Positions 36,628-38,224 of a DNA stretch of 39,965 nucleotides are shown here, piece after piece (position 1 is the stretch's first letter; every line of letters begins with the position of its first letter). Under the pieces are notes generated by a model, which searched no databases, was not told the origin of the DNA, and was given only the letters and a program-made list of their open reading frames with translations. Position numbers and translations under genes: made by a program. Source of the stretch: Roseivirga sp. UBA6061 (lineage in GTDB: Bacteria > Bacteroidota > Bacteroidia > Cytophagales > Cyclobacteriaceae); the NCBI GenBank assembly GCA_002427745.1, contig DIYF01000122.1, positions 1 to 39,965 on the forward strand. Reading direction: 5' to 3'.

Positions 36628-36798
36628 ACTCTTAAAACCCTTCCCTGTTTTCTTTTAAACTTTTTATAGGGTACTCGTAAAGCCAGGTGTTTGAATTTTA
36701 AGGAGCATCCCCACTCATGTCCGTTTAAGTCTGCACAATGACTTAATAGCGATATTCCACCAGGTATTCCTATCATTCAATCTCAAATCTGATAGATT

Positions 36799-36843
36799 AT
36801 TTTATAATTTAATCAATACAATAAACATAAATAATTATAAAAT
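36799..36843 (+). repeat. 11-bp inverted repeat in an AT-rich leader
   Basis: ATTTTATAATT (36799-36809) and AATTATAAAAT (36833-36843) pair perfectly around a 23-base loop. The right arm ends ten bases before the presumed start of the small secreted peptide. The region is nearly all A/T, so chance pairing is easier, but eleven matches in a row is still notable. Confidence 0.35.
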
Positions 36844-36853
36844 TATTTTAAGG

Positions 36854-37105
36854 ATTATTAAACCTAACAGGCTCAGACTTACAGCCCTCATTGGTCTCTT
36901 TGCCCTGACCTCTTTCAGCTCTCACGCAGTTCAGTGCCATGGTAGTGTATTCTACCATAAAACGCTGGCAGAAGCACTTGCTGCCACCAGAGATGCAAAG
37001 CTGAACTGCTGTGCGGGTTCAACCATTACTACTATCAACCTGGTTACAGGTAAGCGAGGGCTTATCACCATCCATGAAGACGGCTTCAATTCAAGCTGCT
37101 TCTAG
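36854..37105 (+). CDS. small secreted cysteine peptide without ATG/GTG/TTG start
   Basis: An open frame encodes IIKPNRLRLTALIGLFALTS, then FSSHAVQCHGSVFYHK, LAEALAATRDAKLNCCAGST, and a tail ending HEDGFNSSCF before TAG at 37103-37105. The first 25 residues form a typical signal peptide (basic start, hydrophobic core, SHA cleavage site). The mature part of about 55 residues has four cysteines. The frame holds no ATG, GTG or TTG at its start; ATT at 36854 is the best guess, in a very AT-rich leader. It ends nine bases before the DUF4221-type lipoprotein. NVEALA-type export peptides of Bacteroidota commonly precede such propeller lipoproteins (recalled). A decayed gene or a sequencing error are the alternatives. 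Confidence 0.55.
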   Translation: MIKPNRLRLTALIGLFALTSFSSHAVQCHGSVFYHKTLAEALAATRDAKLNCCAGSTITTINLVTGKRGLITIHEDGFNSSCF

Positions 37106-37114
37106 GACTAAGCT

Positions 37115-38224
37115 ATGCGCCAGCCCTGTTTACTTCTGGCCTTCCTGAGTATTGTCTTTCCATTCCTTATACTCTCCTGCAGAGAAGATCGATCAGATAA
37201 CCGAGACATTGTGTCTTTGCAAAAAGGCGAAGTCATTCTGGATCACGAAGATCTTATCCTGTCCTGGCCACCGGCTTTTATGAAAACTGTAGGCCGGGAC
37301 AGTCTTCTCACCTATGATGAACAAACACACAGGTTCACCCTGTTCAGTCTTCGACATAAAAAACCAGTCTGGTCAGATAGCTTTGAGCTGAGCGGTCCTG
37401 ATTTCATAGAGCAACCTATTCTTGATGCCGAGGTAAAGGGCCATGAACTCATACTGCTATCTCCATCATTTCTGATGATTTCAGATATGAACGGGGCGAT
37501 TAAAAAGAGAATAGCGATCAACGATATCTCAGGTGGCTATTCCAAATCGCTACTCAGAAGCTTTATTGCCAGAAATAAGAACAAGCTGATCTTTCCAAAA
37601 CTACTGCGCGCAGCCGTGAGCCCGGCAGACTTCAGTGATACCACCTCAACTATATTTCTGGAATACGACCTGCCTTCGGGTATTGCAACAGACTTACCCA
37701 TCCCGTCTCCGCCCGAAACGCTGATCTACAACCCGGAAAGCGGTTTTTACAATCACCTTGCTCAACACAACGGCTTGCTTTTGGGAGATAACCTGTATTA
37801 CAATTTCCAATTCTCTTCCAGTATATATCGCTACAACCTCACAACACAACAATCAGATGTATTTCAGGCAAAAACGCGTTTTACACAAAACCGAAGGTCT
37901 CCCATAAACAGGAGACATTCCCCTGAAGAACTGATACGCTATCAGTATTCAGGCGCTTTCTTTCTTCCACTTCTCTATGATGAGACCAGCGGTTATTTCA
38001 TTCGGCTCCACTCTCAGTTTCACAAGGCCTCTGATGGTACCGATGTACTTCATAAATACATCATGATCTTTGATAAGAAGTTCAACTGTCTGGCGGAGAT
38101 TGAAGTGCCTCACAAGGTTTTTGAAGACATACAGGTAGACCAGGGAACTCTCTATCTCTGGAAGCTTGACCAGGAAACAGAGCATGGCTATGAACTTATC
38201 ACCTATACTATCATGGGAGGCTAA
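37115..38224 (+). CDS. DUF4221-type beta-propeller lipoprotein
   Basis: This 369-residue outer-envelope protein has a lipobox ending at Cys22 (LILSC). The rest is beta-strand rich, with repeated short strands ending in acidic turns (HRFTLFSLRHKKPVWSD, GDNLYYNFQFSSSIYRYN, KYIMIFDKKFNCLAEIEVP). This matches the DUF4221/BF3164-like six-bladed propeller lipoproteins of Bacteroidota. No enzyme residues are apparent, so ligand or peptide binding is the likely role. It begins nine bases after the small secreted cysteine peptide, suggesting a functional pair. It converges with thrC. Confidence 0.8.
   Translation: MRQPCLLLAFLSIVFPFLILSCREDRSDNRDIVSLQKGEVILDHEDLILSWPPAFMKTVGRDSLLTYDEQTHRFTLFSLRHKKPVWSDSFELSGPDFIEQPILDAEVKGHELILLSPSFLMISDMNGAIKKRIAINDISGGYSKSLLRSFIARNKNKLIFPKLLRAAVSPADFSDTTSTIFLEYDLPSGIATDLPIPSPPETLIYNPESGFYNHLAQHNGLLLGDNLYYNFQFSSSIYRYNLTTQQSDVFQAKTRFTQNRRSPINRRHSPEELIRYQYSGAFFLPLLYDETSGYFIRLHSQFHKASDGTDVLHKYIMIFDKKFNCLAEIEVPHKVFEDIQVDQGTLYLWKLDQETEHGYELITYTIMGG

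Follow-up and report, generated by a model that had tools for sequence, protein, structure and literature searches.

NCC peptides, a family of small secreted-type cysteine peptides encoded before DUF4221 propeller lipoprotein genes, and a copy without a conventional start codon in Roseivirga sp. UBA6061

A small cysteine-containing frame before a DUF4221 lipoprotein gene

The stretch analyzed here, a 39,965-nucleotide piece of contig DIYF01000122.1 of Roseivirga sp. UBA6061 (the window), carries on its forward strand at 36854–37105 an open frame of 83 residues, with cysteines at residues 28, 52, 53 and 82 of its translation. Its TAG codon (37103–37105) is separated by nine bases from the ATG (37115) of a lipoprotein gene. 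An initial annotation, made from the sequence alone, had described such a frame (83 codons, four cysteines, a TAG nine bases before a DUF4221-type gene) and had remarked on its lack of ATG, GTG and TTG codons. Both statements were borne out, the second even across the 136 codons that are open in total when the likewise open upstream extension is included. The signal peptide that it had recognized was also upheld, here by reading the sequence by eye rather than with a signal-peptide program. This segment (IKPNRLRLTALIGLFALTSFSSHA) occupies 36857–36928, with cleavage placed by eye before VQC, and it is followed by a mature domain at 36929–37102, delimited from the sequence, from alignments and from an AlphaFold2 (AF2) model of the relative P0008. 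In the numbering of the family described below, the cysteine codons of this domain are those of C1 (36935–36937), C3 (37007–37009), C4 (37010–37012) and C6 (37097–37099), all on the forward strand. The widest likely extent of the gene is 36842–37105 (+), starting at an ATT either at 36842, which corresponds to the initial methionine of the relative P0007, or at 36857, the position of the family ATG, and ending at the TAG. An AT-rich leader (36628–36841, +), in which no special fold was found, lies between it and the upstream gene.

The lipoprotein gene (37115–38224, +) encodes a protein that matches DUF4221 (PF13970) with 36.8 bits against a cut-off of 23.4 and has the β-propeller fold of Protein Data Bank (PDB) entry 3s9j. 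This entry is the DUF4221 protein BVU_1028 of Bacteroides vulgatus; the partner protein belongs there by profile and by fold, with a sequence identity of 13%, and the title of the entry states no function.

A family of secreted-type cysteine peptides

When the window genome is set apart, the best match to the raw peptide within the genus (19 genomes, counting that of the window) is in G016, and it is immediately followed by the best DUF4221 relative. A profile (A2) built from six such peptides, the window's among them, found at least 24 places at an E-value of 0.01 or better in 295 genomes of the family; four of these fall within frames longer than 800 codons and were excluded with their neighbours unchecked, so that 20 were kept. 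A wider profile (A4) gave at least 15 places at an E-value of 1e-4 in 12 of 390 genomes of the order, six of these places being new. The numbers from both searches are minimum values, since no more than 18 or 14 first-look candidates were scored in any one genome. In total we obtained at least 26 loci, the window and at least 25 others, in the window's family and order, with matches reaching an E-value of 8.7e-33; six of the 26 came through DUF4221, and the remaining 20 were found independently of it. In the protein database, 24 members were recovered with A2 and 19 with A3 (29 combined). None of the 29 carries a Pfam domain, and the organisms named for them are Algoriphagus, Belliella (two entries) and Echinicola, in which the proteins are annotated as hypothetical. 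Intact pairs occur, for example, in Echinicola marina (P0006) and Algoriphagus hitonicola (P0004). Within the order, to which the search was confined, the peptides occur in the window's family and in one other.

The window frame has a signal-peptide-like start, C1, an NCCxG[SD] motif, the last cysteine and a position before a DUF4221-type gene, the features that define the family. By its sequence, it belongs to a hitherto unnamed group of small secreted-type cysteine peptides, which we call NCC peptides. The mature peptide is 83% identical to that of P0008 and the lipoprotein 63% identical to P0027, both relatives being reported on one contig of 15,736 bases; between the window and P0008 the signal part diverges and the mature part is conserved. 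No credible Pfam family was found for the NCC peptide. The best Pfam match, to IL13 (E-value 0.023), was taken as chance, as was the sole NCBIfam match among four peptides scanned (L026, E-value 0.014), which lies far below the cut-off. A tblastn search of plasmids with P0008 returned no match, literature searches for NVEALA and for DUF4221 gave no hit, and one for PF14055 gave nothing relevant, its matches being mostly malaria papers that probably contain the term as part of gene names. The family is thus without a name in the libraries searched and without a paper found; the arrangement itself is already known, unexplained, from NVEALA peptides and propellers.

Paired cysteines and predicted fold

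Of 49 distinct sequences, two of them (L062 and P0010) read by eye, 25 have both cysteines C2 and C5 and 23 have neither, with one discordant sequence (P0024); for C4 and C6 the corresponding numbers are 44 and four, with one discordant, truncated sequence (L032). Rows were read only where the NC is preceded by a cysteine, which in part accounts for C1 and C3 appearing in every row; the damaged copies G208, G287 and G637 are excluded from the count, and L032, L042 and L056 entered it by alignment and not by profile match. Within a set of 36 rows, C2 and C5 are concordant throughout (15 present, 21 absent), and on a tree the six-cysteine state needs six changes, at least four of which are forced by supported branches. 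The paired gain and loss implies, as its natural reading in these alignments, disulfides C2–C5 and C4–C6, with C1–C3 following by exclusion. The window peptide is of the four-cysteine form, without C2 and C5. Four of the 21 undamaged loci (L073, L074, L259 and L260) lack C4 and C6 and have a different C-terminus. An AF2 model with P0008 as the first of 36 rows predicts a β-α-β-β arrangement, with a pLDDT (predicted local distance difference test) score of about 95 in the mature part. No convincing PDB match or fold relative stood out for the NCC peptide, which does not in itself show the fold to be new.

Placement before DUF4221-type genes

At all 26 loci the next same-strand open reading frame (ORF) of at least 150 codons is of the DUF4221 type, and no NCC peptide locus lacks such a partner (0 of 26). 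Homologous frames before other DUF4221 genes, the absence of which had been set beforehand as one of the tests that would refute the initial annotation, therefore do exist. The partners were typed by Pfam in the window and at L060, L061, L068 and L073, and by hidden Markov model (HMM) at the other 21, of which 14 were recognized in a first round (E-value 1.6e-11 or better) and seven in a second (1e-24 or better). None of 217 control ORFs matched the DUF4221-type HMM in either round; Pfam alone listed DUF4221 for five of 17 partners scanned.

The converse count, from DUF4221 genes to peptides, was made with a detector that asks for an ATG-started ORF of 40–125 amino acids just upstream, beginning in the manner of a signal peptide and containing three or more cysteines. 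It was applied to 38 DUF4221 loci from 30 genomes, with 227 genes in 400 kb of the window genome as controls, and is blind to the copies in the window and in G018, neither of which has an ATG. The detector was positive before 14 of the 38 DUF4221 loci and before none of the 227 control genes (0 of 20 lipoprotein-like ones). In the window genome it was positive at four of nine DUF4221 genes: the peptide at L056 resembles NCC peptides by alignment, and those at L051, L055 and L057 look unrelated. These three share the slot, the signal-peptide-like start and at least three cysteines, and lie outside the NCC profile matches of the window genome, which, among the 18 of 53 first-look candidates scored, gave the window copy only. 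At two NCC loci the peptide and lipoprotein genes overlap by 4 nucleotides, and the distances among peptides correlate with those among lipoproteins (r = 0.67 over 22 pairs, uncorrected for species history).

Three DUF4221 loci of the window genome are followed by genes for small CxxC lipoproteins (L110, 6470–6943; L112, 5759–6205, reverse strand; L114, 6518–6982, reverse strand). By eye these look thioredoxin-type, and they gave no Pfam match at an E-value of 0.05; possibly they are thiol partners of the cysteine peptides.

Loss of the start codon and damaged copies

Comparison of the start codons of homologues revealed an ATG-started full frame at 21 of the 26 loci, that is, at all undamaged ones, and the ATG of the relatives aligns with the window ATT at 36857. 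The nearest relative, P0007 (NCBI/ENA, on a contig of 8.27 Mb), is 98% identical to the window peptide, with two of 83 residues different. It too has isoleucine at the family ATG, so that the loss at 36857 is not simply a sequencing error. Judged from the protein record, P0007 starts with a methionine five codons upstream, at the position of the window ATT at 36842, and it extends two residues beyond the window TAG. A scan with the window peptide for the DNA that encodes P0007 confirmed no match, among records from which near relatives may be missing. In A3 the tail after the last cysteine is anywhere between 0 and 7 residues long, and the early TAG of the window is therefore probably harmless. 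The window lipoprotein differs at 18 of 369 residues from P0026, which is reported on another contig, perhaps of another genome, than P0007.

Five of the 26 copies are damaged: the window copy, which has no ATG; G018, with no start and a shifted frame; G287, with no ATG before the signal segment; G637, with two stops; and G208, in which the N-terminal part is missing. All five adjoin an open lipoprotein frame of 320–383 codons. As far as the sequence can tell, the peptide of the window copy is probably poorly made or silent.

Comparison with NVEALA peptides

NVEALA peptides (PF14055) resemble NCC peptides in being short, exported-type and encoded directly before propeller lipoproteins. A genuine NVEALA peptide at L213 is followed by a DUF4221 gene (E-value 8e-44), and others precede genes for the TolB-like six-blade family PF15869 (L210, L216) and the six-bladed family PF17170 (L215, L217); downstream genes were scanned at five of 11 NVEALA loci, and all five belong to propeller families. 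As NVEALA peptides take up the NCC slot ahead of DUF4221, and ahead of other propellers too, the analogy is a good one. The two kinds of peptide differ, however, in that NCC peptides lack the NVEALA motif, have another cysteine pattern and show no profile similarity to NVEALA. None of 36 A4 members lists PF14055 at an E-value of 0.1 or better, and profile-profile alignment with hhalign gave a probability of 13 over five columns; the one-to-one E-value of 0.0022 comes from columns that cover the MKK start alone. The motif is found in A6 and is absent from A3 and A4. Of 198 genomes in the class, two gave an NVEALA profile match above the cut-off, and both lie outside the window's family.

The initial annotation had put the segment LAEALAATRDAKLNCC of the window peptide at the place of NVEALA. 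This did not hold: NVEALA sits shortly after the hydrophobic N-terminal segment, whereas LAEALAATRDAKLNCC is located between C1 and the CC pair, in a predicted helix, and among the other A3 rows EAL recurs only in P0007, P0008, P0013 and P0014. On these sequences, the LAEALA of the window is a chance resemblance. Of the proposal that the locus is a variant of the NVEALA-type system, what survives is the arrangement, a secreted-type cysteine peptide in the NVEALA slot before a DUF4221 propeller, and what falls is membership in the NVEALA family and the motif.

A putative exported peptide and its propeller partner

From the family, its placement and conservation, the pairing of its cysteines, the propeller fold of the partner and the missing start codon, we infer an exported disulfide peptide with a cognate propeller lipoprotein, the window copy being degraded at its start, and we put the probability of this reading at roughly one half. 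The peptide and the DUF4221 lipoprotein would be made from one transcript. Once exported, the peptide would fold as a small β-α-β-β domain with two or three disulfides (C1–C3 and C4–C6, with C2–C5 in the six-cysteine form) and serve the lipoprotein as cognate ligand or as small partner, held by it at the outer membrane or on the surface of the cell. In the window strain, degradation of the start codon to ATT would leave little or no peptide, with the lipoprotein kept. A role as ligand or partner would explain the gene order, the pairing and the asymmetric loss. Several results weigh on the other side. No such peptide was detected before 24 of the 38 DUF4221 genes, which implies that the propeller also functions unaided or together with some other factor, and the correlation of distances drops to r = 0.27 (2 of 5000; species tree uncorrected) when three near copies are removed. 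The Bacteroidota-type promoter element TAnnTTTG does not occur in 36628–37115. Finally, the codon usage of the window frame is weakly coding-like (0.075 bits per codon): a score as low is found in 9% of 1122 true in-frame pieces and one as high in 6% of 5610 off-frame pieces, one reverse frame scoring alike (0.079), and codon usage was dropped as proof of coding because it is too weak.

The tight gene order with its overlaps, the correlated distances and the CxxC lipoproteins after the propeller at three loci would also suit a peptide that serves the lipoprotein as an obligatory small subunit, as a maturation factor or as an inhibitor and has no function beyond the cell that makes it. Such a structural subunit accounts for the gene order but less well for loss of the peptide alone, given that the window, G018, G287 and G208 retain an open lipoprotein frame (370–383 codons) beside a damaged peptide, and we regard it as rather unlikely. 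The asymmetric loss could also be explained by an antagonism pair, in which a bacteriocin-like secreted effector is matched by the propeller lipoprotein as a surface immunity or receptor-blocking protein. Decay of the peptide in five of 26 copies beside an open partner frame, with every peptide partnered, is what orphan immunity genes look like, and peptides outside the NCC profile matches occupy the same slot elsewhere in the genome. However, no known toxin fold matches, the 24 partners without a detected peptide are awkward here too, and the closest sub-family, at 83% mature identity, shows strong conservation and no visible diversification; we consider antagonism improbable.

Other explanations concern the window copy itself and overlap in part with those above. 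AUU starts exist in bacteria, as in infC of E. coli, and a used, weak AUU start in this lineage would fit an isoleucine at the family ATG in both the window and P0007 with the remaining frame intact and two differences in 83 residues, against 18 in 369 for the lipoprotein. Yet the upstream methionine from which P0007 is called is absent from the window, ATG is present at each of the 21 undamaged loci, and damage to copies is common in the family, which leaves such a start doubtful. The gene could be normal, with the ATT at 36842 and the early TAG introduced by errors of sequencing or assembly, as the single draft assembly of 188 contigs and the disagreement of both codons with the P0007 protein would suggest; this is very unlikely, as P0007, a separate record, shares the loss of the family ATG at 36857 and the N-terminus is thus unusual regardless. 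The ambiguous codon usage would allow even a chance open frame, a reading made negligible by equally placed homologues at at least 25 other loci with E-values down to 8.7e-33.

On the reading of an exported peptide with its cognate propeller, a domain with a solved structure (3s9j) and no assigned function gains a candidate partner, one that is small and foldable and for which a disulfide map is predicted. The slot is common to NVEALA and to a conserved family of secreted-type peptides, unnamed in the searched libraries, and the function of several families could therefore emerge together. More tentatively, the propeller lipoproteins of Bacteroidota may be a general class of receptors or carriers, with an upstream slot that holds interchangeable, unrelated families of exported cysteine peptides (NVEALA, NCC and others). 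With several such pairs in a genome, these would make up an unrecognized extracellular signalling or antagonism system.

Other arrangements around DUF4221 genes

At L039 and L036, hairpins that by eye resemble terminators or attenuators seem to lie between the peptide and DUF4221 genes. A third lipoprotein, of 212–215 amino acids, joins a cysteine peptide and a DUF4221-type gene in a cassette that stands among ribosomal protein genes at L109 (G000:C120), L127 (G011) and L128 (G013). In L109 and L127 the cassette is inserted between the genes for S10 and L3; at L128 it is followed by the L3 gene, with no S10 gene seen immediately before it. At L113 (G000:C143) a secreted-looking cysteine peptide of 91 amino acids lies 3' of its DUF4221 gene and not before it, and four DUF4221 genes stand in tandem at G146:C7:298679–303076.
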